IMG/VR virus record: IMGVR_UViG_3300017727_000145
Span: 1-25,261 of that record
Direction: 5' to 3' (one strand)
Origin: a virus
Length of the DNA: 25,261 bases
The notes beneath the pieces are model-generated. The model saw nothing but the letters and a program-made list of their open reading frames with translations. It was not told the origin of the DNA and searched no databases. This document shows positions 2 to 24,248 of the stretch, piece by piece; position 1 is the stretch's first letter; every line of letters begins with the position of its first letter. The position numbers were made by a program, and so were the translations under genes.

Positions 2-3000
2 TCTATTGATTTCAGACCTAAAGTAGATGGCAATACTACAATTACTGGATTCCAAGATCAATCAATTGTAGAACTATTTGATACCACAGATTATATTACT
101 TTCTTAGGAACTGGTGGTATTCCTACAGCGACACCTGCTCCAGATCAAAATCTACCATACACTGTTTCGTTCAGTGAAAAACAGTATTTGGATCGTATCG
201 ACGGTTTATTCCTCACTAAAAAAGGAGAGTTTATTATCAAAGAAGGTAACTCTTCTCTTAACCCTTCTAAACCAGAGTTATTAGATGATGCTGTTTCTCT
301 GTGCTATTTACATATTCCTGCTTTCACCAACAGTAGCAAAGATGTAAGAATTATTCCTGTAGATAACAAGCGTTATACTATGAAGGATATTGGCAAACTA
401 GAAAAAAGAATTGAGCGTCTAGAGTATTATACTACCCTAAGCATTCTTGAGCAGCAAGCATTGAACATGCAAGTCAAGGATGAAATTGGATTGGATAGAT
501 TCAAATCTGGTTTCTTGGTAGATAATTTTGAAGCACATAGAACCGGAAACCTAAAATCAGAAGATTATAGATGTGCTGTTGATACACAACAATCTGTTCT
601 AAGAGCACAATCTAAAGAAGATAGTTTTGTTCTTAAAGAAATTAATACTAGAGATGACCAAAGAGTTGTTTCTGGTTATGTTATTAATGATAATATTGTT
701 ACTTTACCTTTCACAAACGTAGAACTTCTTGGCAATAAGAATGCCACGAAGACTATTAATCCAAATCCATTTGTTGTTATTCAATATGTTGGAGAGGGCG
801 TAATTGAACCCCAACAAGATTCTTGGTATGATCAAGGTATTGCTCCATTAGTAGTTGATTCCAATACTAAACTAAATTCTATTTTCTTGGCTAAAGAAAA
901 TACTTCGGAAGCGTATTCTAGTATTTACAACTCATTTATTATAAATTGGTGTGGTAGCGATTCAGGATTCCTTCCTATCGAATCTCTTGCTGGTATTAAT
1001 ACAGAAGATATCGAATCTACTGTACAATCTGCTGGTGTTTCTAGTTCTTCTAACGTAAGTCCACAGAATAACGAAGTAGGAAAAGGTCTTGCTACTAAAA
1101 CTGTAGATGGCAAAAAAATTGCTTCTTCACTCCAGTTCTTCGCCAGATCTATTCCAGTTAAGTTTGTCATGAATAGATTAAAACCAGACACCAAAGTTTA
1201 TGTCTATATGGAAGGACGTAATATTGATCGTTGGGTTGTGCCCGATAGTAGATTTACTGGCAAATCTGGAAACTCTTTATCAACATTTGGTGCTCCTCTA
1301 ATTACTGATTCAAACGGAAATCTTTCTGGTATTATTTTAGTTCCGGCTGGTCTTCCTCCTGTATCTAACACTAGGTGGACTAATGATGTAGATACTGTAA
1401 AATATGATGAATCTGGAGAAGAAATTAGATTCTCGACTGGAACAAAAACTATTAGATTTACTTCGGCATCAGATGATTCTGATAAGTCAGAAGTTGATAC
1501 TTATGCTGAAGTTAAATTCTATGCTTCTGGTACTACTCCGGCCAATCCACCGAGTATTACATCTACTGCTGTTTCTTTCTTTAAGGCAAATGAAGGTGTT
1601 CAGTTAGTTGATAGTAATACTGACAATCCAGTAAAACCAAATCCACTTGCCCAAACATTCAAGATTGAAAACTTTGATGGTGGTGTAATGGCGACTGGAA
1701 TTGATCTATTTTTCAAGAACAAAAGTGAAACTATTCCTCTTAGAGCTTATTTGACTGATGTTGCTTCAGGCAAACCGGGCAAAAATATTATTCCCGGTAC
1801 ACAAGTATCACTAACTCCCGAAACTTATTTAAAAATTTATGTAACCGGGGAAAGTGAAACAGTTACGATTAATTTGAATGAGTATGTAACTGGTAAAACT
1901 TCTAATGCTTCTGGACCTATTGCTAAGGTATTTGATTCTAACCTAGTAAGAGTTGGTGATGATACAAGCAATTCGTTCTTGCTAAACAAAGAACAAGTTT
2001 ACACTCTTGTTCTTAATAATCATAACGGCACATCATTTGTAGCAAATGAATCTTTATCTATTCCTTCTGTTACATCATACAACGCTACAAATAATACCAC
2101 ATTAGGAGTATTCATTGCCAAAGATTCTGGTAAGGTTACTGATCTAAGAGTATCTAACGTTGGAGATAATTACGAAACTGCTTCTATTGTTATAGAAAGT
2201 CCCCAACTCCCCGGAGGATCGTCAGCAACAGGTTCAATTTCTGTATCTGATGGTAAGTTATATAACTGTGAAGTCTCGCTCTCTGGAAGAGGATATACCG
2301 AACCGCCGTCAGTTGTTGTTAAAGGAGTAGGACTAGGCGCTGCCGGAGCTGTTATCGAATCAGTTATCGAAATTGATACACCTTCGGTAAGAATGGGTAT
2401 TGCTGTAGATGATACTGGAGTAACTGAATCCACCACACCAACCAAGTTTATGTTCAAGCATCCGGTATACTTACAAAATAATACCGAATATGCTCTTGCT
2501 ATTGAAACAGATTCTATTGAGTATGAAATGTGGGTATCTAAATTAGGAGAAACTGAAATTTCTACTAGTAACATTGTTACTACACAACCTCTATTAGGAT
2601 CAGTTTACAAATCACAAAACACTGATAATTGGACCGAAGATCTATTTGAAGATCTTAAATTTACTTTATACCGTGCTGAGTTTACTCCTGGAACAGATGG
2701 AGAAATTGAAGTTACTAATGAAAATCTTGGTTACGAAAAATTAGATGTATCTCCATTTGAGACTAGTGTAAGATCTGCTACTAACGCCACTTCATCTCTG
2801 TTTAAAAACAATAATTCTATTGTTAAAATTTATCATAGAGACAATGGTTTTGAAACTATCGGAAACTCGTATGTGTTCTTCAAGAATGCTGAGGATATTG
2901 GTGGTATTTCTGGTGTTACTTTGAACCAGAGACTTTACAAAGTTTCTAATTCTGGTATTGATTTTTACAACATCACGAGTCCAAATGGAGCTGGTTCTAG

Positions 3001-4405
3001 CATCATTGGAGGTGGTAGCGACGTTCTTGCTTCTTATAATAGAAAATTTGAAAAATTATATGCCCAAGTTCCTTATTTACAGTTTGACGGCACTAAGATT
3101 GATTCATTTGTAGCAACTACAGATATAGTTCCCGTTGATTCTAGCACCAAGAATTATGTTTCGTATTCATTTTCGGATTATGAAAAAACATTCTTAGGAG
3201 AAGAGCAGTTCTTTACTAATCAAAAAGTTATTGCTTCTAGAATTAACCAAACTATGAACGGATTGGCACATTCATTAAAGTATAAATTTAAACTTTCGAC
3301 ATCGAATTCTGCTCTATCCCCTGTTATTGATCTACGTACTGCTACCGTTAAAACAGCATCTAATAGAATAGAAAACGCTAGTGGTTACGAAGATCGTTAT
3401 GGTAAGAGAGATCAAGTACTTTCATTCTTGCCTCTATACCAGTTATCAATTTCTGTTACTGGCAGTAATGCTGGAGACGTAGGTGCAAACAAATTCTTAA
3501 TTGGACAAACGTCCAAAGCAGAAGGATTTATTACTAGTTTTACTAATGGCGATGCCACTATTAGACTTAAAACTACTACTCCATTCCAGCAAGGAGAACC
3601 ATTGACTCTCATTGATGAGACAGGAGCTGAAGTATCAAACGTCGCTATCACGATTACCGCTATTTCAGAAATTCAATTTAATTTCAGTGTAGGATCTAAT
3701 GTAATTGCTTATTCACCCCAAGATTCTAGTGTAGATTACTCCAATAAAATTAATGGTAAAGTTATCCTCTGGGATGCTGAAGATAAAATTTTAATTGTTG
3801 AAAATTCATATCAACCAATTAATGGAAACTATACAGCATCCGTTTCAAATGCTGAAGCATACACAAGAAATCAAGATAATACTGCTCAGCAACCAGATGT
3901 CTTTAGATCAGGTGATGTTGTACTATCTACTGGAGACGATACTCCGGTATTTATTGAAATCAACCAAATTGATTATTCTACCGGAGTTGATTATGTACCA
4001 GAAACAGATGCCGTAAATAGTTCTTCAGTTGCTAAGTATGTAACTAAAGAAGTCTTTATTGATAACTCTGGATCTGCCATCGATGTAAGATCTACTATGA
4101 ATCTCACTGATATAGAAAATGTTAAGATTTACTATAAAATTAGAGAGTCTTCTAGTTCAGCAAACTTCAGTGATATTAACTGGGTTCCATTTAATATAGA
4201 TGGAGATCCTGATGTAAATAATCTAGCCAGTCCATCAAACTCAATATCTGGTCAGTTTGAAAAACAGCAAGATTATCAAGAATTGGTTTACAGTGCTTCA
4301 AATCTTCCTGAGTTTACTTCTTTTGCTGTAAAAATTATTATGAAGACTGATAATCCTTCATACGTACCTAAGATTCAAGATCTACGAGTTGTTGCTTCAT
4401 ATTAA
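2..4405 (+). CDS. DUF4815-type virion structural protein, 5'-truncated by the window edge
   Basis: The frame is open from base 2 to the TAA at 4403-4405, giving at least 1467 residues. The first in-frame alternative start (TTG at 188) lies inside coding sequence, because upstream residues such as SIDFRPKVDG already fit the family. Fragment residue 127 onward reads MKDIGKLEKRIERLEYYT, followed near 164 by LDRFKSGFLVDNF. Near 547 comes NPLAQTF and near 862 QPLLGSVYKSQN. I recognise this series from large DUF4815 virion proteins of T4-like cyanophages. The short Glu/Lys/Arg-rich segment near 127-150 may be a coiled coil; the rest looks beta-rich. Residues about 711-796 carry two GxGYT-like repeats (GDNYETASIVIESP, GRGYTEPPSVVVKG). 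The role is probably a baseplate- or fibre-associated virion component, which is inferred from family and neighbours. The stop overlaps the next ATG by one base, implying translational coupling. Confidence 0.8.
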   Translation, partial: SIDFRPKVDGNTTITGFQDQSIVELFDTTDYITFLGTGGIPTATPAPDQNLPYTVSFSEKQYLDRIDGLFLTKKGEFIIKEGNSSLNPSKPELLDDAVSLCYLHIPAFTNSSKDVRIIPVDNKRYTMKDIGKLEKRIERLEYYTTLSILEQQALNMQVKDEIGLDRFKSGFLVDNFEAHRTGNLKSEDYRCAVDTQQSVLRAQSKEDSFVLKEINTRDDQRVVSGYVINDNIVTLPFTNVELLGNKNATKTINPNPFVVIQYVGEGVIEPQQDSWYDQGIAPLVVDSNTKLNSIFLAKENTSEAYSSIYNSFIINWCGSDSGFLPIESLAGINTEDIESTVQSAGVSSSSNVSPQNNEVGKGLATKTVDGKKIASSLQFFARSIPVKFVMNRLKPDTKVYVYMEGRNIDRWVVPDSRFTGKSGNSLSTFGAPLITDSNGNLSGIILVPAGLPPVSNTRWTNDVDTVKYDESGEEIRFSTGTKTIRFTSASDDSDKSEVDTYAEVKFYASGTTPANPPSITSTAVSFFKANEGVQLVDSNTDNPVKPNPLAQTFKIENFDGGVMATGIDLFFKNKSETIPLRAYLTDVASGKPGKNIIPGTQVSLTPETYLKIYVTGESETVTINLNEYVTGKTSNASGPIAKVFDSNLVRVGDDTSNSFLLNKEQVYTLVLNNHNGTSFVANESLSIPSVTSYNATNNTTLGVFIAKDSGKVTDLRVSNVGDNYETASIVIESPQLPGGSSATGSISVSDGKLYNCEVSLSGRGYTEPPSVVVKGVGLGAAGAVIESVIEIDTPSVRMGIAVDDTGVTESTTPTKFMFKHPVYLQNNTEYALAIETDSIEYEMWVSKLGETEISTSNIVTTQPLLGSVYKSQNTDNWTEDLFEDLKFTLYRAEFTPGTDGEIEVTNENLGYEKLDVSPFETSVRSATNATSSLFKNNNSIVKIYHRDNGFETIGNSYVFFKNAEDIGGISGVTLNQRLYKVSNSGIDFYNITSPNGAGSSIIGGGSDVLASYNRKFEKLYAQVPYLQFDGTKIDSFVATTDIVPVDSSTKNYVSYSFSDYEKTFLGEEQFFTNQKVIASRINQTMNGLAHSLKYKFKLSTSNSALSPVIDLRTATVKTASNRIENASGYEDRYGKRDQVLSFLPLYQLSISVTGSNAGDVGANKFLIGQTSKAEGFITSFTNGDATIRLKTTTPFQQGEPLTLIDETGAEVSNVAITITAISEIQFNFSVGSNVIAYSPQDSSVDYSNKINGKVILWDAEDKILIVENSYQPINGNYTASVSNAEAYTRNQDNTAQQPDVFRSGDVVLSTGDDTPVFIEINQIDYSTGVDYVPETDAVNSSSVAKYVTKEVFIDNSGSAIDVRSTMNLTDIENVKIYYKIRESSSSANFSDINWVPFNIDGDPDVNNLASPSNSISGQFEKQQDYQELVYSASNLPEFTSFAVKIIMKTDNPSYVPKIQDLRVVASY

Positions 4406-4605: not shown

Positions 4606-7600
4606 CGTCGCCAGAACAGATACCTTTGAAGTTCAAAGGCAAAAGATTAACCAGCTTGGAAATCAAATTTTCAACATCTCAGAAGGTGGTTCTGATCTTT
4701 CGACCGGCAATTTAAAATTAGGAGATGGTACTAGAGGTACTCCATCTCTAGCATTTGCTTCTGATGTAAGTTTAGGTTTATATAAAAATGCTCAGAATGA
4801 ATTAGGATTTGTCAGTAACTCAAAAAAAGTTTTAGATCTTAAATTAGAAGAATCCGTATTCTATAAAAATACTGTAGTAAGAAAAAATACGATTACTACT
4901 AGTGGAGTTACAATTAATCAATCCGGATCGGGATATGATATCGGATCATATTCTGATGTAGCACTTTTGGGTGGATCTGGATCTGGATCTACAGCATCTA
5001 TTAATGTTCTTTCTTATAGCGGAAGTATTACGACAAATGGAGACGGATATACTCCAGGAAATTATACTGATGTAGATTTAACAGGAGGAAATGGTGTCGG
5101 AGCTGTTGCTGATGTAGTTATTACTAGTGTTGAAGGTACTATTACTAATGCTGGTTCTGGATATACTGATGGACTATATTCGGACGTTGGGTTGACCGGA
5201 GGAAGTGGAGTAGGAGTAACAGCAGAATTTGATATTATATCTGGGGTTGTAGATAGTATTACAATTACTCCAGGAACAGGAAATGGTGGTTATATTCAAG
5301 GAGAAGTATTATCAGTAGCAGCTGCTCAGGTCGGAGGAACTGGGGCTGGGTTCCAATTTACTATTTCTAGCAATCCAGGTACTGTCGAAACGTTTTCTAT
5401 ATCACTTTATGATGATGGCAATCTGTATCAATCTGGTGATATTTTATCTTTAGATACTTCTGTGGTCGGAACTCCATCCACACCATTTCAATATACTATT
5501 GGTGATGTAGGGGTTATTGATAATATAAGTATCACTAATTCAGGATTAGGATATAACGATAATGATATTTTAACTGTAAATGCTTCAGATCTTTCATCTA
5601 ATATCGAATATGCTGTTACTGTTGTAGCAACACAATTAATAGAATTTTCTCCAAATACCGTAGCATCTTCTGTTTTTACCAAGAACAATGATGTTCAAGG
5701 TAGAAGTGGTCAAGTTGAAGGCGTAGGATTAGTTAACGTATATACAGGATCCAACAATCAGACATACAACAATGTTTCTTTACCTGGAGCATCTGGTACA
5801 GGTTTGGTAATTGATTTTATTACTAATACCGAAGGCGAGTTAGAAATTTCTAATGTTGTTTCTACTGGTTTTGAATATACAACTTCAGAAGTTATCAATA
5901 TTCCATCAGGTTCTGTTGGAGGAATTTCGGGAGCACAGATAACAATTCAATCGGCGTCTACTTTCAGTGCTATTCCATGCTATGAAGTGTTTTCCACAGG
6001 ATCTTTCATAGATGCTATTGTAGTTGGAAATGATAGTTTTGATGTAAATGATCAAATATTTGAAATAGGTAATAGCAATTACCAAACTATCACAGGAGTG
6101 ACTTCGGCAAATCAATATTTACTTGATGATGGCACTGGCGATACACCAGAAGACCAATACAATCCATTATTTACATTATACTCTGGTAACACATATAGAT
6201 TTATCTATTCAGACTCTTCCAATTCAGGACATATTTTTGCTCTCAGTAGAACTCCCGGAGGAGAATTTGGTACAGTATCTCAATCTGGAGTTACTATTTC
6301 AACTTCTTCAAAAACTTTAACAGTTACCGATACTACTGGCATTACAGTTGGAATGACAGTTAGTGTTTCTGGAGGATCTGGGGTACTTGAGGCAACATCT
6401 GTAGTAGAAAGTATTGTCAATGGAACTTCTTTGACTCTTGATAGTTTTCCTACAGGAGATGGTACTGCTGATTTAACATTTACTGGAGTAGAGTATAGCG
6501 AAGGAACTTTTAAGGGAGCAGACTATTTAGATATTACTATTAATGATGCCACCCCAAATATATATTTTTACTGTACCGTCCATCCTTTAATGGGTGGGTA
6601 TTCTGAATATGAATCAGTTTTATCTACCAATACAAATAACCCCAAAGTTTTTGGATCTGGATTTGAGTTATTAGTTGATACTGTTTCTACCGTAGATTCA
6701 GTTCTTTTGGATGTATCTTCAGGCGATGTAGCAGCATCTTCTTTTACTGGACTTTCGGGCAGTATTTCCTCATTAGTTTCTAATGTTAGTGTAACTACTC
6801 CGTTATTGGAAGGAACAACTATCAATGGAACTTCGTTAAATTCTACAACATCTTTATCTATTACATCCGTAAATGGAACGACAGTAACTGGCGATTTAGA
6901 CATTGGTACTACTATTCAAACTGTAGCGTCTACTGGATCAATTACGACTTCAGGTGAATTAAAAACTAATGGATCTTTTAATTCATCAGATAAATTAATA
7001 ATTACTGATAATAACATCAGTTCTAGTTTAAACAATAGTGTTATTATCACACCAGCAACAGATCAAATTGTCAAAGTGGATAGCGACACTGCTTTAATTA
7101 TTCCTAGCGGACTATCTACTGAAAGACCAACAACTCTTGCTGAAAATGGTGCTATTAGATTTAATACAGAAAATGGGCAATATGAAGGTTATAGTGCCGC
7201 CACAACCTCTTGGTCTTCTTTAGGTGGTGTTAGAGATATTGACGGCAACACATATATCGAAGCAGAAGCAACAACTGGGGCTAACGACAATACTTTATAT
7301 TTTTATAATGATGGTAACAATACTGTAAAAATAACTCCACAAAAATTAGATTTTCTTAGTGCCAAGACTATTTCTTCTTCCAAAGTTGGTTTACCTACTC
7401 ACACAGTGTATAGTTCAAATCAAAATTATACTGTAGGCGATTACGCAAGATACGAGAAAAATTTATATGAAGTTACTGTGGCTGGTACTTCAGGTACTTC
7501 TGGAAATGAACCTGTTCATACTTCAGGAGCAGCTTTATCAGGAACAGTAGAATTTACGTGGTTTGCCATTGCTGTTGATGATCTTACATTTAGTCAAATT

Positions 7601-9182: not shown

Positions 9183-12100
9183 ATGAGCTTTAAGTTTAAC
9201 TCGGATAACGAAAGAATCTCGGGCATAAATCCTTCCATCTTAGGAGAATCCGAATTTACTATTAGAACTGGTACGTCGGCTTCCGAGAGGGAAATTTTTA
9301 GAGCTCAATTGTCAGATGCTGGTCTGCCAAGAGTTGGTATTAATAGGACTGGGAGAAAGATTGAAAAAATTACTGTTGGATCGAAAGGTGCTGATTATAC
9401 AATACCTCCAACGGTTGTTATTGAATCTCCAACTAGATCACCGTTTGTTCAAGCTCAAGCTTCAGCCGTAATTAATAATGGGTTAGTAACAGCAATTGTA
9501 GTTGACAATCCTGGAGATGGATACGAAACTGCTCCAGCAATTACCTTCACTGGTGGTGGAGGTGGAGCAGGTGTTTCGGCTACTTCTACTCTGGATGAAG
9601 TCTTATTTGAGTTAGATGTCAACGGAGCTGTAAGAACTTCAACATCTATTATTTCTGATACTGCTCGTATCTTGAACCTTGATATTGATAATTTTGTTAC
9701 CGCTGATGCTAGTTTTAGAGCTCCCAATCTTAAAACTTTCCAAAATAATACTGGAACTCCTTGGGCACAAAACGTCATTGTTCAGGTAGGAGATTATCGT
9801 TATTATAATACTAATGTATATCAGGTAATAACTTCTGGACAAACTGATTCTATTAGTCCACCAGAACATACTGATGGTGTTGAAGCAAATGGAACTGCTC
9901 AACTAAAACATATTGGTTTTAGAGTTATTGATCAAAACCAACCTTTCTATAGCGAGACAGGTGAAGCAGGAATTTTTCCAAGATCTATTACTCCAAGACT
10001 AGGAGATAGATCAGATAAGATTGCTACTACAGAATACGTCCTCAACCTAGCAACGAATGACGTTGGTGGTCGTGTTTATGTCTCACAATCTATTGGCGAT
10101 GATTTAAATGATGGTCGTTCTGCTGTAAACCCAGTTAGAACAATCAAAAAAGCATGTCAAATTGCTTGGTCTACTGTTGGAGTCAAAGAGACTCTTATCA
10201 TCTCCGGGGGAGACTATGTAGAAGATAACCCAATTTCAATACCACCAGATTGTTCACTTGTTGGTGACAACCTTCGTTTAGTTATTGTAAGACCACAAAA
10301 TGCTAGAAAGCATGTATTTAAGTTTGGTGATAAAAATTATGTAACTGGTATTACTTTCCGTGATCAAATTGATTCTAATGGAGATCCTGTGGCAACATGG
10401 GATTTTGCCATGGTATTTGACGATAAGCAAAGAATTTATTTTGATAAAGAATCTGGTGGTGGGTTTGGAAGAACCTTACCTATTGGTCATCAAGTATTTG
10501 GACCACCTAGAATTTCTTCCACTTTCCAAACTAATACTGGGTTAAGTAACTTAACAATAGGAAGTGCTGTAAGAGGTATTAATACTGGTGCTGAAGGTAC
10601 AATATTTTCTTTATCATTTACAACAACTACTGGACCACAAGCTTATGTAAATGGCACAGGTTTGGTAAATGTTACTAATAGTACGTTTGCTACAGGAGAA
10701 ACTTTCCAATTTGGTGGTTCTGGCACATCTAAGTACTTAGAAGAGACCGCTGTAACAAGTGGCGATATCCTCTGGGCGATTGGTAATGTTTATACTGTAA
10801 CAGCATCAGGTACTACAGGTACATCTATCCCAAATCATACTAGTGGTGCTGCTACAAATGGAACCGCAGAACTTACTTTCCTTAGAGTCGCTTATGAGTT
10901 TGTTTCTACTGACATCAAATCTATTCGTGCTGAAGGTGAAGTTGTAGAGACTGGAACTGATTATACTACAGCTCTTCCCATCACAAGAATTGATTTTTCC
11001 AAGCAAGGAACTGCCGAAGTTTCTCAAGGTGGTTTTGGATCTGAGGTGGAAGGAAATGGCGAAGACTTGGGTGGTATTATTTTCTATACTAATGCTCTTT
11101 CTGGAAGAGCAAACGTCCATCCTTTCAAAGAAGGTCAGGAAATTGAAATTTCTGGTCTACCTTCATCCCCAACAGATTTATCATTCCTTAATGGAAAGCA
11201 AAGAATTTATAAAATATTATTAGATGCTGATGGAAGATCTAGAAGGTTCGTAATTCCTAAAAAGACTACAGTTCTTACCACAGATAATTACTTACCAACA
11301 GGTATCGTAGAAGTAAAGTCAGCAATGTCTTACATGACATTATCTTTACTAAACTCACCAAACAAATTTAATAGAGCATCATATGTTTCCAGAAGATATC
11401 AAGATGCTTGTAATTTAATTAGAAACAATATAGATTTTATTAAAGATGAAGTTGTTTTAAAATTAAACGATCAATTTGCTAAAAAACATTTTGCAGTTGA
11501 AAACTACAATTCTGATTTAAATACTTTTAATGTAAGGACAAATCCAAACAGTTTTGCTCATTCCTACGTGAGCGGCGGTACAGTAACGTTTGAAGGAACT
11601 GAATATACAGTTTCAAATCTAGCTTATAACAATGAAACTGGGATTGGTTCTATATCTACAACAACAACAATCTCTGGATTAAAAAATGATGATATCGTAA
11701 AAGTAGAAGATATCGTAGTTTCTTGTACACAGGGACAAAAAATCTATCCAGGATTTAATATTCCTGGCGGAGACTCGAAGTGTTACCGAGATGTTGGTCA
11801 CTTTGTCAATGCTATTCTAATGGACCTTGAGTATGGTTCAAATTCTCATGTTATCGAAGCAGCAAAATATTATATTTCTGGAGCTAGAGTTGAATATGTA
11901 GATAACGAAATTATTCAAACTATTAGAGCTTTTGAATATGCCAGACAACTGATGGTCTTGGCAATGAGAAATTGGATTACCGGAGATGGAACTTCCAGTA
12001 ATCTAGAATATGTTCCAGAATATTCGAGTGTTGCTAGATACAAAGATCCAACAGTAATTTCAACAACAGCTGGAGCTCCCGTTTGTGCTGATGTAGAAGC

Positions 12101-15100
12101 TTCTATTAATACAATAGTATATCTTTTTAATGATATCCTAGCAAATAATACTAATGGAACACTTCTGGATGCTGCTTATTTAGTTGCTAGAAATAGACAC
12201 GTAATTGCTGATCAATCATTTAGAGATGCCACATCATTCTATCCAGCACTTAGATTAAATGAGCAAAGATCATTTAAGTGTAAGAGAGATATTAGTCTTG
12301 TACTTTCCGGTTTAATTAGAGATTTATGTCTTGGTGGCAACTCGGGTATCGTCAATGCCGCCGAGCAATACTATACTGGTCAAGCATTAACTGGAGTTCC
12401 TGAAGCACAACTTGGCGGCACCATTTATGCCTTCCGTCAGGTTCGTAAGTACGCTCGTCAAGCGATGCGTAATTGGACAAATGGTAATTTTATTGACACA
12501 ACTCCATCCTTCTCTACATATAGTTCAACTTCTGGGGAGTTAACTGTAACATTCCCAACTCCAACCACACCTATTATAGCCAATAGAACTAGAGTTGCTT
12601 TTAAAGAAGGTGCTATCACATTCAATTGTGATCCTGGATCTGGAGCAGGTAATCACGCAAGTCCTACTCCATCAGATCGTAATTATGGCAAGAGTAGTCT
12701 AATTACTGCTGTTAGTATCAATGGTGGAAACACAACTATCACAACTAATGTTGGAGATGCTGGTTCTGCTGCTGGGATTAACCACACATTTGACTCAGCG
12801 TTGGCAAATGGAACCATTTTAGTTTGGGATGAAATTGATGTTTATTCTCCTATTCCTAGATTTGAAGATTGGAATATTCTTGTAGATGGATCCAATGTAG
12901 CTTTAGAACTTCTCACTCCATCTGACGCTACCTACAACCCTGCTACAGGAGATTTTACTATTACATCAGTTGGTCATGGGTATTCCACCAGCAATGTGAT
13001 CAGAATTGCTCCACAGTCTTTCACGTTCACTTGTGCCATGGATGGCGACAAGACAGAACATTATCTTCCTGGTGCTGGTCAAACAGCGTTTGATAGCGAA
13101 TTAGCGATCACCGGGACTACTAATGATACTATTACTGTAAACGTAGGTGCTTCTGCTGCTGATGTACAATTTACACCAACAGATGCTATATACGATCCTG
13201 CTACTGGTGAGTTTACGATAACAATCGGATCACATAGTTTATACATTGGTGCTGGTATTACTATTGATGATAATTCAATTTCCTTTACTTGTGAGATGGA
13301 TGGAGATGACTCAACTAAGTCATATCCACGTCCAGGTATTGATCCGTTTGCTGGAAGATCTATTCCAATTTCAGCAGTTGGTCCAACCACTATTACAGTT
13401 AATGTAGGTAAGTCTGGTGCCAATAAGTATTGGCAACCATCGTCGGCTAGTTACGCTGCTGACACTGGCGATATGATCATGGATATTGGACAACATGGTC
13501 TAGGAGTTGGTAGAAGTGTTGTTCTTGAAGATAATTCACTCACATTTACTTGTGATTCAGATGGAAATGTTTCTCAAGAAACCTATCCACGCCCTGGATC
13601 TGATCCTTTTGCTGGCAAGTCTATTGCTATTACTAATGTTGGATCATCTCAGCATACAGCAACTAATGCTGATTATGATGCTTTGCTGGGTCTTGTAACT
13701 TTAACAATTGCTAATCATAACTTCACTGAAGGTGATTATGTTAAAGTTGCTGATACTTCATTAACATTCTCTTGCCAACCTGAAGGAGAATCTGCTCCTA
13801 TCAATAAATCATACCCTCGTGCTGGGTACGATTATCCAAGTGGTCGTTGGTTACAAATTACTAACGTAACTACAAATACGTTTGATATTGAAGTTGGTCC
13901 TTCTGCTTATACGGGAAGTCACAGTTTTGTAAGTGCTGCTGCTAACGGGATCGAAAGACAAAATGGACTAATAACAATTAATGTGGGTGCTTCTCCAGTT
14001 GGTCAGCAATACACCCATGCTTTTGTAGGTGCTACTGCTAATGCCGTACAGCATCTACCACAATCTGATCATACTTTTGTTTCTGCCGGAACTAATGCTA
14101 TTAAGCATCTACCACAATCGACACATACATTTGTAAGAACCCAGAATAATTCTATTGCTATATTTGCATCTGGAGGATCTCCTGTTTGCTCTGGTATTGC
14201 TTCTACTATCAATACTTCCATGTTACTACTTGAGCAAATTTTAGATGGAACTATTGCTCCTGGAGGAACAGCAGTAAATTATGGAACTCTGTTTGATACT
14301 TCAAATATTCTGACTAGACCAGATAATTATCTTTATGATCAAGATAATAAAATCATAACTCCAACAACTACATATAATGATCTTCCTATCATTGAGGCAT
14401 CTCCATATACACAAAACGCTTCGGTTATTTCTTTCCTAGGTGGCGGTGGTGCTGAAATCGATGGAGACAAAGTTGCTTCTCCCAACTCACCATTCCCTGG
14501 TCTAGAACTTGACGGATCAGCATCCTTCCCCAACCAAGGAAAATCAATGGTTGCTGCTGCCTTTACCATCATCACATTTGGTGGTACTGGATATAGAGTT
14601 ATTAATGACGGTTATACTCAGTTAGTTTCTGTCTTCGTTATCTTTGCTGAAAATGGTTGTTTATCCGAGTCTGGTGGATATGCTTCTATCACTAACTCTG
14701 CTACCAACTTCGGTACATTTGCCCTAAGAGCATCAGGATTTAGAAAAGAATCCTATGAGTTTGACTCTGGATACACATCTGGTGGAGGAGTTTATAATAG
14801 AGCATATATTTCTAATGTATCAAATACAGTTACCGGCAGATCTATTCTTACGGTAGAGAATTTAGGAAGAAGAGCTCTAGAGCATTATATCGTCAAGGTA
14901 GATGGTTATAGTAATGTTGATAGTGATACAGAATTTTTCATAGATGAAGTAACTGGAGGTACAGTAGGACCACCATTTACGTGTACTTTAACTATAGATG
15001 ATGGCACGGGTGGATCACTTTCTCTAATTGATGATAATAACGGACAAGTGGTCAGTGCTACAAATTTAGTAGCGTATCACAACACTAATTACGGTAGTGA

Positions 15101-18100
15101 TCCTTCAGTAGCACTACATAGACCATCTATTGTTAACTCTTCTTCCCACACTTGGGAATTTGCTGGATCTGGTACTAATTACAATGCCTTGCCAGAGAAC
15201 GGTGGAACTAAGATCGAAGCAAACGAACAAGTTTCCGAAAACTATGGTCGTGTTTATGTTTCTGGTACTGACGAACTTGGTGACTTCAAGGTTGGTACAT
15301 TCGCCAAGATCGAGAACAGAACTGGTGCTATCACCTTTACAGGAACAGTTACCATCTCCGAAGTTGAATTCTTAAAACTGAAGGGTGGTGATGTTGTTGT
15401 TACTGGTTTCGATGCTTCCAATACACTTGGTGGTGCTACATCTTCTGACAGCAAGATCCCAACCCAGAAAGCAGTCAAGGACTATATTACTAACAACCTT
15501 GGTCCATATATCAACAAACCATACTCAACAAACGCTGTTCCTAGAGCACTTGTTGAACTAACAGATAGTGGCAAAATTTCACTAGATCAAATTCCTGCTC
15601 TACGTCCATTTAGTGTTTACACAGTTGCTGATCAAGCAGAAAGACTTGGGGCTAATACCACATATGGAGATAGTGGTGCTCTTGCCGGAGATATTGTTAT
15701 TCAAAACGATACCTCCCGATCGTTTATTCTTAATAATGATACGGAAAGTCAGTTCTTAGGTTTCTCTTACAATGCTGCCTTAGCATTTACGGTGAATGAT
15801 ATATATGCTTCCAGAAATTCCGGTGGTGCTGTTGGAGGCAGTGGATCACAGATTCAAGCAACAGAATATAGACAAGGTATTTTGTATACTGTCAATATTA
15901 CTAATGGTGGATCTGGGTACACATCAGCTCCAAATGTAACAATTAGTGGTGGAGGATCTCCAACAGTATCTGCTGATATCATAGCAACCGTTGCTAACGG
16001 TCAAATTGTATCACTAAGTATTGTAGAATTTAATAATTATGTTGGTGGTTATGGGTACTCATCTGTTCCTACAATTACAATTGATGCTCCTACATCTGGA
16101 GGTGGTACACAAGCAACTGCTAGTGGATTGATTGAAAGTAGACTTTACGGAAGCATTGTTAATAATGTAAAATTTGCCGATACAGATTACGTCAATGATG
16201 ATAATGGAACTACAGTAGATGTAATTAGAGTATACAATACTTCTTCTACGAATATTAGTAATTGGGTAGCACTATCTTCCGATCAGATTGATGCTGGATC
16301 TGTTACTTCTGGTATTCTATCCACATCAAGATTGGCACAAAACTCTTCTGCTGCTAACTCTTTCACATTTTTAAGAGGAGACCAAGCATACGCTCCCGTC
16401 CTTCAGTCATTAAAAGGTGCTGAAACAAGATACTTCGCTATTACTAGTGCTCAATCTCTCACTAATTCCAGTACACTAACATTCGCAACAAATTCAAATC
16501 TTCTTAAAGGGCATGAAGTTGTAGATAATGTTTCTGGCATTCAATCTAATACGTTGATTTCAGTTGTAACTACTGCTGCTGGTACTACGGATATTTTATT
16601 AGATAAAGCTTTATCGGCAGATGTTCCAGCTGGAACAATCATCCAATTTGAAAGAGGAGTATCTCCTCTTGTTATGGAGTCTACGTTTACTATTGGAGCT
16701 TTCGTAGAAGAAATTGTTATTGCTAATCCTGGTAGTGGATACACCAACGGATCGTATCCTGATGTTCTTTTAACTGGAACTGGTAATGGTACAAGTCTTA
16801 AAGCTAATGTAGTTATTGCCGGTGGAACAGTAACATCAGTTCTGGTAACTAATGGTGGTACTGGATTCACAAGCGGCGACTTTGTTATTTCTGGTGCTAA
16901 TATCCCAGTAATATTTGGTCCTGGTTCAAATTTAAATCTACGAGCAAAAGTAGGAGAAGTAACCAGAAACTATGCTAACACTACTATTGATATCAGTAGG
17001 ACAACAGATCAGACTATTTCTCAAGATTTATATGGTACAGTTGGTGTTTCTAGATTTAAAAAATCTCAGTTCAATATTGGTGATGACGGAAACGGATCTA
17101 TAGAATTAAAATCAGGTGATGGTAGTAATTTAGATGCTGATTTACTTGATGGATTCCAAGGATCACATTACACTAATGCCGGTAGTATTACATCAGGTGT
17201 TCTAGGAACTGATAGATTATCCGGTACTTATAATATTAATGTTTCTGGTCAAGCAGGTGCCACACTACGTTTAGAAACTGACATCGGTTCTCTAAGTTCT
17301 TCTTCTAGTCCAGATCAATTCCCATCTGGTTTAAGTGCTGATACTAAAAACAATTCGGCGGATGGACTTGATGACGGTGGAATTCGTCACCTGTCAGTAA
17401 CCCTAAGGAACGGTGCTTCTGGTACTGACGCTACTTATGGTGGTGTTAGACAATTAGCATTCACTGATAATGATAACATGTGGATTCGTGGTTCTGGAAC
17501 TACTCCAGCAAACTCGTTTGGAACATGGTATAAAATATGGTCAGAAAAAAATGATGGTCCAGATACAGGACTTGATGCTGACAAGTTAGATAACAAAGAA
17601 GGTAAGTGGTATCAAACTGCTTATAATATAAACTACGGTATTCTATCTTGTAACAGGATCCCAGAATATCTAGAAGAAACTAATATTAAAGACTCATTAA
17701 TTATTAGAGGAATCAACAACTTCGAGTATTATGAGATATATGTTCCGAATCAACTATTGGTTGGATTACCTTTTGTTGATGCTAACGGATCATATCAAGT
17801 TGTAAATCTATATGATTCTACTTCTAATAGTGTTGGTAGTTTCCAAATTACAAATATTGTTACTAATGACGAAGTTCCTGTACCACCAAATCCAGCAAGT
17901 TCGGAAGATACTTCTGGTGACTATAGTATTCTGACAGGTTACATTAGTAGTGGTGGTTTTGTTGGGGCACTAACTGTTGGTACTGCTTCTAATAGACCAG
18001 CATTTGCTGACTATAGAATTATACTTCCTCCAAATAATGAGACCACACAAACTGTATATGAAGGAGCAAGACTTTCTGACGGAGAATTAATTCTTGGTAG

Positions 18101-19979
18101 AAAGGATGACAATGCTTCTACACCGGATATCAAATTTAGATCTGGTGCTACTACTGCTAATAACAGCGGGACGATCACATACGACTCCAGTATTGTAGCT
18201 TCTGGAGGAAACGGTAGTACGGGCCAAGGTACTATAAATGTCATTGTAGGAACAAATGATAGTTTTACAATTAACAGTAACATTGTTTATAATGCTGGTA
18301 ACCTATCATTCTCTAGTACGGGTGCTTCTAATTCAGTCGTAGTACTAGATAACAGTGGTAATTTTAGCGCCAACGAAATTACAGCAACTCTAATTGGTTC
18401 TGCTTCTGATAATTTATTGCTAACCGGAGGCACTATTGATGGTGATCTCAATATTGGTAACGTAGCAACTTCAAGAACTCTAACAATTACCGGCGATGTT
18501 GATGTTTCAGATACACTAGACGTAAATGGAATATTTAAAGTTGACACTACCAACAACTTAATATACGGTGATGTAACAAATGGCAATGTTCTAATAGGTT
18601 CTGCTCCAGCAGCAACAGTAGCACAAAATGGTAAGTTTAATATAAACACTACTACTGATGGTAAAACTGCTTTAACATTAAGAACAACAGATAACACAGC
18701 AGATCAAGGTATTGCTTTCCAGAATGGTGGATATTCTTATACTTGGAGTATCTTTAGAAAAGCATCTGATTATGGCACCAATAATCCAGCAACAACATCG
18801 GCTGCCGACCTTTATTTCAATGGTGCCAATACAGCAGCAGAATCCAATATCGATAACTTACCTAATTCTCTCATCTTAAGAGCAGGTGGTGATATCGAAA
18901 CTGGCAGCGGTAATGTTGGTATTGGTCAGTCTCCACTTGACATTCCATACAAACTATCTGTTAATGGTCAAGTACATACAGAGAATGCTTCTGCTGTTAG
19001 TTATAGTGATCAAGATTCTTATCTCGTATTCTTCAATGATTTAGAAGTAGAAGTTTTAGATACATCTGCTAACTCTGGATACAATGTAATGAATACATTT
19101 GTTGCCGAGAAGACAGGTGATTTAAGAATCAAGTGGACATCGTACATTGAATCCGGTCCAAACTGGTATGCTTTCCGATTTACTAAGAATGGAACTGAGT
19201 TGTTCAATGCTCCATATAATTCCGTTACATATCTAGACGGAAACAGTGCTTCTGTACACAATTACAGAAACTTCTCTGCTGCTATCACTGATGTTAATCC
19301 AGGAGATATCATTTCATATGAAATGGTATCGTCCACTTCTGGTGGATCACCTGTAAATGGTAGTGGAACTCAAGATCTATATTGTAAGAACTTTAGGGTT
19401 TTTAGTGGATCTCCTCATCATGCTAATCCTCATGGTGGCAATGTTTTTATCGGTGATGGTCAGATCGGTATTGGAACTGGTATCCTAATTAATCCCAGTG
19501 ACTCAACTACAGAGTATGCTTTGAATATTCAGGGCAACATCAACTTCAATGGTTTGTTGCTTCAAAATAATGCCGAATTTATTGCTTCTAGATGGTCCGA
19601 ATCCGGAACCGATATCTATAGAAACTCTAGAGTTGGTATTGGCGAAACTACTCCTATATACACTCTTGATATTGGCGAAGACTTCACAGATGCTGGCGAG
19701 ACTGGTCGTCTACGTGTTCAAGGTACTTCTAGATTAGAAGGTGCTGTAACAGTTTCTACTGGTGGTGCTGAGATTACAGGAGACCTCGAACTTAAAGACG
19801 GATTTACTGTCAATGGTTCTGCTCAATATCTTGATACTTATGGCATCATCAAATCTTCTGGTCAAACTATTGATGAAAATGTTACTATCCCAGCTGGAAC
19901 AAATGCTTTCTCGGTTGGAGATATTATTGTTGCTAATGGAAGAACAATTACCGTAAATGGTGTTTGGAAAATTCTTTGA
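9183..19979 (+). CDS. Giant fibre-like virion protein with split parallel beta-helix (3598 aa)
   Basis: A single uninterrupted frame from ATG 9183 to TGA 19977. Approximate map in residues: 60-135 GxGYT repeats; 194-250 and 523-575 VGDYxYYxxxVYQV-like modules; 297-430 start of a pectin-lyase-like beta-helix (RVYVSQSIGDDLNDGRS, SIPPDCSLVGDNLR); 737-1105 helical segments with CYRDVGHFV and CKRDISLVL motifs; 1247-1510 four repeats of about 80 residues containing FTCxxDG and YPRPGxDPFAG; 1740-1865 resumption of the beta-helix (GKSMVAAAFTIITFGG, NSATNFGTFALRASG); 2235-2320 and 2510-2573 GxGYT repeats; about 2651 LDGFQGSHYTNAG; 2754-2790 pyocin-knob-like RQLAFTDNDNMWIRG with TWYKIW; 3270-3410 a C1q/TNF-like jelly-roll; 3483-3500 VGIGETTPIYTLDIG; and a final NVTIPAGTNAFSVGDIIVANG end domain. 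It is very probably a host-contacting appendage, inferred from modules and position. Confidence 0.85.
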   Translation: MSFKFNSDNERISGINPSILGESEFTIRTGTSASEREIFRAQLSDAGLPRVGINRTGRKIEKITVGSKGADYTIPPTVVIESPTRSPFVQAQASAVINNGLVTAIVVDNPGDGYETAPAITFTGGGGGAGVSATSTLDEVLFELDVNGAVRTSTSIISDTARILNLDIDNFVTADASFRAPNLKTFQNNTGTPWAQNVIVQVGDYRYYNTNVYQVITSGQTDSISPPEHTDGVEANGTAQLKHIGFRVIDQNQPFYSETGEAGIFPRSITPRLGDRSDKIATTEYVLNLATNDVGGRVYVSQSIGDDLNDGRSAVNPVRTIKKACQIAWSTVGVKETLIISGGDYVEDNPISIPPDCSLVGDNLRLVIVRPQNARKHVFKFGDKNYVTGITFRDQIDSNGDPVATWDFAMVFDDKQRIYFDKESGGGFGRTLPIGHQVFGPPRISSTFQTNTGLSNLTIGSAVRGINTGAEGTIFSLSFTTTTGPQAYVNGTGLVNVTNSTFATGETFQFGGSGTSKYLEETAVTSGDILWAIGNVYTVTASGTTGTSIPNHTSGAATNGTAELTFLRVAYEFVSTDIKSIRAEGEVVETGTDYTTALPITRIDFSKQGTAEVSQGGFGSEVEGNGEDLGGIIFYTNALSGRANVHPFKEGQEIEISGLPSSPTDLSFLNGKQRIYKILLDADGRSRRFVIPKKTTVLTTDNYLPTGIVEVKSAMSYMTLSLLNSPNKFNRASYVSRRYQDACNLIRNNIDFIKDEVVLKLNDQFAKKHFAVENYNSDLNTFNVRTNPNSFAHSYVSGGTVTFEGTEYTVSNLAYNNETGIGSISTTTTISGLKNDDIVKVEDIVVSCTQGQKIYPGFNIPGGDSKCYRDVGHFVNAILMDLEYGSNSHVIEAAKYYISGARVEYVDNEIIQTIRAFEYARQLMVLAMRNWITGDGTSSNLEYVPEYSSVARYKDPTVISTTAGAPVCADVEASINTIVYLFNDILANNTNGTLLDAAYLVARNRHVIADQSFRDATSFYPALRLNEQRSFKCKRDISLVLSGLIRDLCLGGNSGIVNAAEQYYTGQALTGVPEAQLGGTIYAFRQVRKYARQAMRNWTNGNFIDTTPSFSTYSSTSGELTVTFPTPTTPIIANRTRVAFKEGAITFNCDPGSGAGNHASPTPSDRNYGKSSLITAVSINGGNTTITTNVGDAGSAAGINHTFDSALANGTILVWDEIDVYSPIPRFEDWNILVDGSNVALELLTPSDATYNPATGDFTITSVGHGYSTSNVIRIAPQSFTFTCAMDGDKTEHYLPGAGQTAFDSELAITGTTNDTITVNVGASAADVQFTPTDAIYDPATGEFTITIGSHSLYIGAGITIDDNSISFTCEMDGDDSTKSYPRPGIDPFAGRSIPISAVGPTTITVNVGKSGANKYWQPSSASYAADTGDMIMDIGQHGLGVGRSVVLEDNSLTFTCDSDGNVSQETYPRPGSDPFAGKSIAITNVGSSQHTATNADYDALLGLVTLTIANHNFTEGDYVKVADTSLTFSCQPEGESAPINKSYPRAGYDYPSGRWLQITNVTTNTFDIEVGPSAYTGSHSFVSAAANGIERQNGLITINVGASPVGQQYTHAFVGATANAVQHLPQSDHTFVSAGTNAIKHLPQSTHTFVRTQNNSIAIFASGGSPVCSGIASTINTSMLLLEQILDGTIAPGGTAVNYGTLFDTSNILTRPDNYLYDQDNKIITPTTTYNDLPIIEASPYTQNASVISFLGGGGAEIDGDKVASPNSPFPGLELDGSASFPNQGKSMVAAAFTIITFGGTGYRVINDGYTQLVSVFVIFAENGCLSESGGYASITNSATNFGTFALRASGFRKESYEFDSGYTSGGGVYNRAYISNVSNTVTGRSILTVENLGRRALEHYIVKVDGYSNVDSDTEFFIDEVTGGTVGPPFTCTLTIDDGTGGSLSLIDDNNGQVVSATNLVAYHNTNYGSDPSVALHRPSIVNSSSHTWEFAGSGTNYNALPENGGTKIEANEQVSENYGRVYVSGTDELGDFKVGTFAKIENRTGAITFTGTVTISEVEFLKLKGGDVVVTGFDASNTLGGATSSDSKIPTQKAVKDYITNNLGPYINKPYSTNAVPRALVELTDSGKISLDQIPALRPFSVYTVADQAERLGANTTYGDSGALAGDIVIQNDTSRSFILNNDTESQFLGFSYNAALAFTVNDIYASRNSGGAVGGSGSQIQATEYRQGILYTVNITNGGSGYTSAPNVTISGGGSPTVSADIIATVANGQIVSLSIVEFNNYVGGYGYSSVPTITIDAPTSGGGTQATASGLIESRLYGSIVNNVKFADTDYVNDDNGTTVDVIRVYNTSSTNISNWVALSSDQIDAGSVTSGILSTSRLAQNSSAANSFTFLRGDQAYAPVLQSLKGAETRYFAITSAQSLTNSSTLTFATNSNLLKGHEVVDNVSGIQSNTLISVVTTAAGTTDILLDKALSADVPAGTIIQFERGVSPLVMESTFTIGAFVEEIVIANPGSGYTNGSYPDVLLTGTGNGTSLKANVVIAGGTVTSVLVTNGGTGFTSGDFVISGANIPVIFGPGSNLNLRAKVGEVTRNYANTTIDISRTTDQTISQDLYGTVGVSRFKKSQFNIGDDGNGSIELKSGDGSNLDADLLDGFQGSHYTNAGSITSGVLGTDRLSGTYNINVSGQAGATLRLETDIGSLSSSSSPDQFPSGLSADTKNNSADGLDDGGIRHLSVTLRNGASGTDATYGGVRQLAFTDNDNMWIRGSGTTPANSFGTWYKIWSEKNDGPDTGLDADKLDNKEGKWYQTAYNINYGILSCNRIPEYLEETNIKDSLIIRGINNFEYYEIYVPNQLLVGLPFVDANGSYQVVNLYDSTSNSVGSFQITNIVTNDEVPVPPNPASSEDTSGDYSILTGYISSGGFVGALTVGTASNRPAFADYRIILPPNNETTQTVYEGARLSDGELILGRKDDNASTPDIKFRSGATTANNSGTITYDSSIVASGGNGSTGQGTINVIVGTNDSFTINSNIVYNAGNLSFSSTGASNSVVVLDNSGNFSANEITATLIGSASDNLLLTGGTIDGDLNIGNVATSRTLTITGDVDVSDTLDVNGIFKVDTTNNLIYGDVTNGNVLIGSAPAATVAQNGKFNINTTTDGKTALTLRTTDNTADQGIAFQNGGYSYTWSIFRKASDYGTNNPATTSAADLYFNGANTAAESNIDNLPNSLILRAGGDIETGSGNVGIGQSPLDIPYKLSVNGQVHTENASAVSYSDQDSYLVFFNDLEVEVLDTSANSGYNVMNTFVAEKTGDLRIKWTSYIESGPNWYAFRFTKNGTELFNAPYNSVTYLDGNSASVHNYRNFSAAITDVNPGDIISYEMVSSTSGGSPVNGSGTQDLYCKNFRVFSGSPHHANPHGGNVFIGDGQIGIGTGILINPSDSTTEYALNIQGNINFNGLLLQNNAEFIASRWSESGTDIYRNSRVGIGETTPIYTLDIGEDFTDAGETGRLRVQGTSRLEGAVTVSTGGAEITGDLELKDGFTVNGSAQYLDTYGIIKSSGQTIDENVTIPAGTNAFSVGDIIVANGRTITVNGVWKIL
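11391..12485 (+). repeat. Repeated helical Cys-Arg-Asp segments inside the giant protein
   Basis: Three related helical stretches occur: RRYQDACNLIRNNIDFIKDE from residue 737, KCYRDVGHFVNAILMDLEYG with C867, and KCKRDISLVLSGLIRDLCLG with C1033. The second and third continue with an AA-x-x-YY segment and end in a YARQ...AMRNW motif (AFEYARQLMVLAMRNW, RKYARQAMRNW). They are probably degenerate copies of one alpha-helical domain, unusual in an otherwise beta-structured fibre. Confidence 0.7.
12921..13917 (+). repeat. Four tandem beta repeats of about 80 residues with FTC...YPRPG signature
   Basis: Repeat starts fall near 12921 (SDATYNPATGDFTI), 13179 (TDAIYDPATGEFTI), 13440 (SSASYAADTGDMIM) and 13656 (TATNADYDALLGLVTL), about 70-87 residues apart. 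Each has a central FTC or FSC cysteine, as in SFTFTCAMDGD, SISFTCEMDGD, SLTFTCDSDG and SLTFSCQPEG. Copies 2-4 follow with YPRPG or YPRAG and a DPFAG-like or DYPSG segment. Most end in an ITVNVG-like strand. These are classic tandem fibre-shaft or adhesin units. Confidence 0.85.
13908..14160 (+). repeat. Short HxFVxAxxNAIxHLPQS repeats
   Basis: Immediately after the 80-residue repeats, four short units recur: SHSFVSAAANGIERQNG, THAFVGATANAVQHLPQS, DHTFVSAGTNAIKHLPQS and THTFVRTQNNSIAIF. The DNA core catctaccacaatc is repeated exactly in the middle two units, indicating recent duplication or recombination. Confidence 0.85.
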
Positions 19980-23120: not shown

Positions 23121-24248
23121 ATGCCTACTAGTCCTTACTTTCCCACTTACTATAGCGGTTTTTCTGGCGAGCAAAATCTCGTACAGGATCTCGTTGACGA
23201 GCAGATCAAACTGTTCGGATCGGATATCTATTACCTACCTAGAACAATCCTGAAAGATAATACTTTAGATGACATCATCTATTCAAAGTATCAGGAACAA
23301 TTTCAGATTGAAATGCTTCTAGAGAACGTAACAGGTTTTGGAGAAACATCTGAATTTATCAGTAAGTTCGGTCTGCGTATTACAGATGAAGTAAAGTTTC
23401 GAGTCTCTACAAGACGTTGGGATGAAGAAGTAACTGAACATGCTCCTACTCTTACATTAGATAACAGACCTAACGAGGGAGATCTATTGTATTTCCCGTT
23501 GACAAAAGATTTGTATGAGATCAAATTTGTAGAAAGAGAGCAACCTTTCTATCAGATGGGCAAACTTCAATTCTACACAATGACTGCTGAGATCTATGAG
23601 GTTGGCAGTGATAGCATCGAGACAGGTGTTGCTGAAATTGATGTAATTGAAACAACCCAGTCTAGTTCCATTAAACTGTTTATGGATCCTGGTGGTACAG
23701 GAGACTTTGTTGTAGGAGAAGAAATTGTAGGTGACGAGTTCCTTGCTAAGGCAACATCAACTATTAGTGGTGATGCTGTTGATGGTGTAGTAATGACAGA
23801 CACTGGTTTGTACTACAACCAATCACTACCACCATCTGTTACATTCTCTGGCGGAGGAGCAACTACAGATGCTACGGGCACGGCGACGGTTTCTGCTGCT
23901 GGTCTTATTACTGGGGTTGTCATCACAGATGGTGGTGCTGGTTATACTAGTGCTCCTACTGTCACTATTGATTACTCACCCAAAGACAATAGAGCAGATG
24001 TCAAGTCTTGGGATAGTGCTACACGTGCCTTGGAAGTCATCAACAGAACAGGAACCTTCACAACTGCTGAACTAGTTACTGGTCTAACTTCAGGTGCTAC
24101 TTGGAGTCCCGAGTCGTTTAACACTCTAAATAATACCAACAGCGCCTACGATCAAAACTCCGAAATTGAAGATGAGGCTGATAACCTTATTGATTGGGGA
24201 GAAGTTAATCCCTTCGGTGAGTATGGCAACTTTATGGATTCATTCTAA
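23121..24248 (+). CDS. 14: Neck protein gp14 (T4-like) with inserted GxGYT beta repeats
   Basis: A 375-residue protein starting one base after gp13. The N-terminal 150 residues (SPYFPTYYSGFSGEQNLVQD, IKLFGSDIYYLPR, then TLDDIIYSKYQEQFQIEMLL) are the recognisable gp14 core, which with gp13 closes the head and joins it to the tail. T4 gp14 is about 256 residues, so this one is roughly 120 longer. Much of the extra is residues about 221-287, a pair of GxGYT-type repeats (GLYYNQSLPPSVTFSGGG, GAGYTSAPTVTIDYS) like those in the fibre proteins upstream. The C-terminus returns to a plausible gp14 end (EDEADNLIDWGEVNPFGEYG). The stop overlaps the gp15 ATG by one base. Confidence 0.88.
   Translation: MPTSPYFPTYYSGFSGEQNLVQDLVDEQIKLFGSDIYYLPRTILKDNTLDDIIYSKYQEQFQIEMLLENVTGFGETSEFISKFGLRITDEVKFRVSTRRWDEEVTEHAPTLTLDNRPNEGDLLYFPLTKDLYEIKFVEREQPFYQMGKLQFYTMTAEIYEVGSDSIETGVAEIDVIETTQSSSIKLFMDPGGTGDFVVGEEIVGDEFLAKATSTISGDAVDGVVMTDTGLYYNQSLPPSVTFSGGGATTDATGTATVSAAGLITGVVITDGGAGYTSAPTVTIDYSPKDNRADVKSWDSATRALEVINRTGTFTTAELVTGLTSGATWSPESFNTLNNTNSAYDQNSEIEDEADNLIDWGEVNPFGEYGNFMDSF
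23781..23980 (+). repeat. GxGYT-type repeat pair inserted in gp14 (residues about 221-287)
   Basis: Two units, VVMTDTGLYYNQSLPPSVTF and VVITDGGAGYTSAPTVTIDY, share the pattern V-V-(I/M)-T-D-x-G-x-x-Y-(7-8 residues)-V-T-(I/F). They are the same family as the units in the 1467+-, 1345- and 3598-residue virion proteins, although gp14 is a neck protein. Confidence 0.8.

Follow-up and report, generated by a model that had tools for sequence, protein, structure and literature searches.

A tandem repeat with a nearly invariant single cysteine, carried as a putative movable block in a giant tail-fibre protein of marine cyanophages

The stretch of DNA analysed here (the window; 25,261 nucleotides, positions 1 to 25,261 of IMG/VR virus record IMGVR_UViG_3300017727_000145) comes from a T4-like cyanophage and covers part of its cluster of structural genes. 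It carries a very long open frame, P0001, in which a small domain is repeated in tandem. The features needed for the description are given below, with residue numbers of P0001 in brackets and bit scores from a profile of 658 distinct units.

9183-19979, plus strand: P0001, the giant tail-fibre protein with the array, an open frame of 3598 aa
9990-10502, plus strand: conserved segment before the array (270-440), found in 36 loci at E <= 1e-5
11385-12512, plus strand: helical-looking module (735-1110), with tblastn matches in the fetched loci
11505-11519, plus strand: alternative insertion site (775-779), where the array lies in the loci L009, L024 and L175
12510-12797, plus strand: U0 (1110-1205), degenerate unit with Cys1149 in FNC, without His18 and without YPR; 48.4 bits
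12924-13181, plus strand: U1, Cys1284 in FTC, with YLPGAG; 87.6 bits
13182-13442, plus strand: U2, Cys1370 in FTC, with YPRPG; 99.5 bits
13443-13664, plus strand: U3, Cys1457 in FTC, with YPRPG and a short C-terminal part; 82.0 bits
13665-13934, plus strand: U4, Cys1531 in FSC, with YPRAG; 88.2 bits
14160-15152, plus strand: conserved segment after the array (1660-1990), found in 39 loci at E <= 1e-5

P0001 belongs to the cyanophage tail-fibre family PHROG_5342 both by the profile match along the protein (E 0, 4067.9 bits, in five stretches, the best at 1659-3597) and by gene order: on its 3' side stand small genes and then the gp13-, gp14- and gp15-like neck and sheath-stabiliser genes. Phage Syn1 has the same gene order up to gp13-gp15, and P0001 is collinear with its tail fiber protein Syn1_101 (3380 aa). 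The segment 270-440 has 62-94% identity among the listed matches that span most of it, and we take both conserved segments to be beta-helix-like. A part of P0001 (2447-2628) also matches PHROG_460 (head closure Hc2; E 9e-16), which is the family of the gp14-like neck protein in the same window (23121-24248); this stretch is common to several structural proteins of the phage.

Another virion structural protein of the window, P0002 (4592-8629), holds at 6104-6661 a cupredoxin-like stretch with an invariant His (6/6 aligned) and a C-x2-H-x2-M motif which is kept in four of the six and replaced in the other two; its likeness to type-1 copper proteins is presumed. The stretch gave no Pfam or PDB sequence match, it was detected in 46 of 50,697 phage records, all cyanophages by name, and no paper joining phage, cupredoxin, tail and virion was found.

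The four strong units U1-U4 span 12924-13934 with about 74-87 residues each, and their Cys codons start at 13032, 13290, 13551 and 13773. They are genuine repeats, alike far beyond chance: blastp identities are 41% between U1 and U2 (E 4e-17), 47% between U2 and U3 (E 8e-24) and 37% between U3 and U4 (E 2e-11), and their profile scores are 82-99.5 bits, whereas 200 residue shuffles of P0001 never exceeded 5.7 bits. The 658-unit profile contains U1-U4 themselves, while the blastp similarity is independent of it. U0 is related to U2 with 31% identity (E 4e-6). Each of U0-U4 has exactly one Cys. A candidate sixth unit at 812-857 was rejected, its score being only 1.3 bits and not significant. The preliminary description, made from this DNA before the present analysis, had placed four tandem units at 12921-13917, each with one central cysteine and a YPRPG turn at regular intervals. 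The four units with one Cys each do lie there, in frame in P0001 (blastp E down to 8e-24), but the degenerate fifth unit U0 precedes that span. The YPRPG turn is exact in U2 and U3, whereas U4 has YPRAG and U1 YLPGAG, and the distances from Cys to Cys (86, 87 and 74 residues) are not fully regular.

The repeat is unnamed in Pfam and NCBIfam. P0001 gave no Pfam-A match at E <= 0.1, no NCBIfam match and no solved relative by sequence, in agreement with the earlier remark that no named family was known for it; the endosialidase catalytic domain was likewise not found (Pfam-A, E <= 0.1). The suggested search with a profile of the units among phage and metagenome proteins yielded, after iteration, the 658 distinct units, and P0001 reached no Pfam or NCBIfam family. 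In the open-licence literature, as far as its available text extends (including PMC7824862, PMC3037559, PMC7029224 and PMC12632334), no description of the repeat was found.

Within what was searched, the module is found only in marine cyanophages. With the 350-aa array as the tblastn query, 321 of 50,697 phage records were matched, whose names begin with Synechococcus phage (242), Cyanophage (49), Prochlorococcus phage (22) or Marine (8). Taken as a scale, the gp15-like protein matched 2018 records, 593 of them Escherichia phages; the array is thus not a general T4-like feature. All 130 IMG/VR loci hold units, as expected from how the loci were found. In genome_contigs 33 loci match the DNA pattern and five of these hold units; four are MAG contigs, and the sole named-isolate locus is the 188-kb Nonlabens xiamenensis contig NZ_RMVE01000006.1 (L153, L180-L183). 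A cellular origin of the latter units was rejected, since the contig is 98.7% identical to cyanophage P-TIM40 over all 8 kb compared, that is, cyanophage DNA in a flavobacterial isolate assembly, where it is probably a carry-over.

The number of profile matches per reading frame ranges from 1 to 26, many frames ending at contig ends. Units are also held by the virion proteins of T4-GC 643 (at least 8 matches in P-RSM4 and at least 14 in P-SSM7), by a P-RSM6 virion protein (at least 22), by an ACG-2014e short-tail-fibre protein (2) and by Sf-FS3_86 (L174 6004-13482; 9). Sf-FS3_86 is labelled a YHYH domain-containing protein; it has no Pfam match at E <= 0.01 and so does not belong to YHYH by that scan; the label may be a mistaken or an inherited one. 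All 114 units scanned match PHROG_1276, PHROG_5342, PHROG_701 and PHROG_18802. Apart from PHROG_1276 (unknown function), every PHROG family in which the units sit consists of large virion or tail proteins, and the context of the unit-bearing proteins is exclusively tail, baseplate or structural.

The outstanding property of the unit is the constancy of its cysteine, Cys37. Because the Cys itself could bias detection, the profile was rebuilt with positions 18, 37, 40 and 46 masked, and with this Cys-blind profile Cys37 was present in 642 of 645 distinct units. Most loci had been fetched with a pattern containing FTC, so units lacking that peptide were counted separately; Cys37 was found in 511 of these 514. 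It is likewise present in all 42 units of the six isolate genomes to which tblastn had led. In a weighted set of 640 units (effective number 360), which was restricted to units having Cys37, Pro49 is the sole listed position as constant as the cysteine, followed by Gly9 (0.96), Phe35 and Asp53 (both 0.93), His18 (0.92), Tyr48 (0.91) and Arg50 (0.90). Core positions, among them 26, 28, 33, 60 and 62, are less constant than Cys37. The residue is encoded by TGT in 766 and by TGC in 119 of 885 matches, redundant copies included. Exactly one Cys stands in the aligned columns of 589 of the 645 units, and Cys makes up 1.23% of the residues inside the units versus 0.48% outside them in the same frames. 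Conservation in 642 of 645 units goes beyond the requirements of an ordinary packing residue, and it is puzzling that a single unpaired Cys should be almost absolutely constant in a domain whose sequence otherwise falls to about 40% identity.

The exceptions are instructive. In the three Cys-less units (L021, L070 and L088, the first two nearly alike) the beta4-beta5 hairpin is four positions shorter and His18 is replaced by Asn. In unit 3 of L002 and L003 eight residues including the Cys are gone from the same hairpin and the His is kept; these two are outside the list of three, presumably removed by the length filter. As the Cys is missing in five units with a shortened hairpin, it accompanies the long form of the hairpin. 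Conversely, the U0-type units, 19 by our rule (no His18 and no Tyr48; e.g. L001, L019, L125, L049), keep Cys37 without His18, Tyr48 or Arg50, which suggests that the Cys may matter apart from the other marks of the barrel. Many of the Cys units that lack His18 are of this type, with SP instead of YPR. A second Cys at position 72 occurs in 8 of the 19 U0-type units and in 11 of the 626 others, counts that ignore relatedness; it could form a disulfide inside the barrel or reflect shared descent.

The fold of the unit was modelled with AlphaFold2. With 114 units in the alignment, U2 was predicted as a small beta-barrel of six strands (pLDDT 86.7, pTM 0.76; m6c20e083a063), and the four-unit model, built with 9 sequences, reached pLDDT 80.1 and pTM 0.66. 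In the U2 model the Cys lies at the end of strand 4 (model residues 39-43), and a short turn follows. The Cys hairpin, in block 41-50 of the model, is its less certain part, the mean pLDDT being 74 there, 90 in block 31-40 and 86 in block 51-60. Covariation of position 34 with 45 and 47, and of 36 with 45, agrees with an antiparallel beta4-beta5 hairpin, in which Leu33, Phe35 and Cys37 alternate with polar positions 34 and 36 and lie on one face with residues 44, 46 and 48. Since Cys37 shares this face with the core residues Leu33 and Phe35, we take it to point inward, close to the end of the predicted barrel.

The best solved neighbours of U2 are the endosialidase barrels (1v0e, 3gvj, 3gvk and 3ju4 with Z 6.7, 4hiz with 6.5; Z 6.5-6.7 over 66-68 residues, 1.9-2.4 A), followed by a phage head-to-tail protein and then by the E1 FCCH barrel (Z 4.8-5.7). 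U4 is the part of the four-unit model that matches solved structures best, with Z up to 7.9 over 76 residues for E1 FCCH and 6.9-7.3 for the endosialidases, although according to the comparison tool values of Z below 8 may reflect merely a common arrangement. Foldseek returned no PDB match at E <= 0.001 (best E 0.13), and against BFVD 23 matches at E <= 0.001, of which all the organism-named ones are Synechococcus phage proteins; the fold comparison covers the families in the Foldseek and VIA rows. When single units were scanned against Pfam at E <= 1, End_beta_barrel was matched by 13 of 114 units (best E 0.0028) and E1_FCCH by 12 of 114 (best E 5.3e-5). These weak matches to the same two families make a shared fold more likely than Z alone does. 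The barrel fold of the unit is likely; its likeness to the endosialidase and E1 FCCH barrels (Z 6.7-7.9) is suggestive only.

Other candidates raised by the 114-unit profile were discarded. Iota-carbonic anhydrase (E 1.8e-5) was rejected as chance, its E value being the sum over three internal repeats with independent E values of 4.8, 85 and 76; two of the three matched repeats lack the Cys, and the fold of this enzyme is alpha+beta. BB0238 and the other solved-structure candidates had E values of 0.16 or worse and were rejected as well.

It was also recognized that the array is not bound to one place in the fibre. The listed loci that match at least one of the three P0001 segments flanking the array number 62, and 17 of them have all three segments together with units; in 8 of the 17 the helical-looking module comes first and the array second, which is the order of the window, and in 9 the array comes first. 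That the module is helical is our reading of the sequence. In L009 and L024 the array is flanked by clean matches to residues 711-774 and 780-1234 of P0001, in L175 (Syn1) the flanking matches are shorter (711-771 and 782-1098), and in all three about 1.3 kb holding the units lies between the flanks. Array positions 1-4 have a mean identity of 57-66% between phages, a comparison that mixes both placements, versus 36-52% between positions within one protein. The occurrence of the array on either side of the helical-looking module in a collinear protein points to a movable block; by these alignments a four-unit block of fixed inner order appears to have changed place with the neighbouring module.

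The reading that we favour, held with about even confidence, is that the units are small adhesion barrels pendant from the fibre, and that the single cysteine of each has its role within that barrel. Observed, of all this, are the repeated units and where they occur, the constancy of the Cys, and a block that stands at one or the other of two places. The string of barrels, carried as one block inside the giant tail-fibre protein, would hang outward from the fibre body, and its several modules would each bind the cyanobacterial surface weakly or extend the reach towards it; the barrel fold near the endosialidase beta-barrel and the E1 FCCH barrel is its predicted part. An adhesion role is assumed because the repeat lies in tail proteins and resembles the K1F tailspike barrel; the barrels probably help the virus to grip its host. 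In a mutational scan (PMC12632334) the K1F barrel is described as a hotspot of host discrimination and as one of the three sites that bind polysialic acid. By analogy with this sugar-binding barrel the ligand would probably be a polysaccharide. The strand face and the hairpin length, in turn, argue for a Cys that serves its own barrel: it may pack or fix the beta4-beta5 hairpin closing one end and would make no disulfides between chains. Against this assignment, a Cys with a purely structural task should in some units have given way to Ser, Ala or Val, yet 642 of 645 have kept it; in the model the tip of the hairpin could reach a neighbouring chain; and the U0-type units retain the Cys without the other marks of the barrel.

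A less ambitious explanation is that the barrels are inert spacers, which do no more than add length or bulk to the fibre, bind no ligand and have the Cys as a packing residue. The wide range of copy number (1 to 26 matches per frame) and the two possible places of the array agree with it; same-position units, however, are more alike across phages than the different units of one protein, so that each position has an identity of its own, which interchangeable spacers would not have, and we consider this explanation rather doubtful. The preliminary description had suggested inter-chain disulfides or metal sites along a trimeric fibre, the cysteines of the three chains converging to lock the fibre or hold a metal. 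The near-invariance of Cys37 (including the 42 of 42 units of the isolates), the frequency of His18 (602/645) and of His or Lys at position 46 (611/645), and a hairpin tip that might be exposed would suit such an arrangement. Yet geometry does not allow a ring of three like cysteines to pair completely, and the Cys shares the inward strand face with core residues. Within the unit no constant ligand set accompanies it: His18 is missing from 40 of the 642 Cys units (in 3 of them by a gap), so that a Cys-His pair is not the whole story, His/Lys46 is missing from 31 of the 642 (gaps included), and position 46 is Lys, a poor metal ligand, in 233 of 645. Because the partners vary, we accepted as a general explanation neither a metal site formed by Cys37 with His18 and residue 46 nor a type-1 copper set that includes Met39. 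The shift of the array relative to the helical-looking module also suits pendant domains and is hard to fit with a continuous three-chain stem needing each Cys in register. Convergence on the three-fold axis thus found no support, and we regard the cross-linked or metal-holding fibre as unlikely.

A reactive or modified thiol should be weighed as well. Together with its basic neighbours (His/Lys46, His18), Cys37 might form a low-pKa thiol or a cross-link, which would lie inside the barrel or reach the host surface. A constancy greater than that of the core positions speaks for it, as does a basic position 46 on the partner strand, near Cys37 by covariation; on the other hand, some U0-type units (e.g. 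L019, L024, L125, L001) retain Cys37 without His18 and a basic 46, and no enzyme family matches. We judge it very improbable in this specific form, and only slightly less so the broader idea that the thiol does chemical work instead of serving for packing, in a barrel module of the cyanophages' own. Were that idea true, the 4 to over 20 barrels per tail protein would amount to a many-pointed thiol array, reacting with the cyanobacterial surface or holding a metal or cofactor against it.

Marine T4-like cyanophages infect major primary producers of the ocean, and their receptor-binding proteins are largely unassigned. A countable module marking candidate adhesion arrays could allow receptor-binding regions to be found and compared across isolates.

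Compared to known systems, the nearest is the endosialidase beta-barrel (PF12195 End_beta_barrel; K1F/endoNF 1v0e, 3ju4, 3gvj; phi92 4hiz), likewise a small barrel in a phage tail protein. There, however, a single barrel is present in the tailspike, inserted in a propeller, whereas P0001 has a tandem array, and the protein stays below the curated cut-off of PF12195 (no match at E <= 0.1). The same holds for PF16190 E1_FCCH (none at E <= 0.1), the first catalytic-cysteine half-domain of ubiquitin E1, a barrel of the same size as the unit but part of a eukaryotic enzyme with another role; at most the fold would be shared, and no functional link is implied. The existing clusters containing the unit, PHROG_1276 (325 aa, unknown function) and PHROG_5342, 701 and 18802 (virion or tail fibre), are whole-protein clusters, none of which defines the unit or assigns it a function. 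Among the phage gene clusters, T4-GC 643 (P-RSM4, P-SSM7) is unit-bearing but a different gene, located upstream of gp9 and gp8, while Syn1_101 (T4-GC 1070) is collinear with P0001 and stands before gp13-gp15, differing in that its array precedes the helical-looking module.
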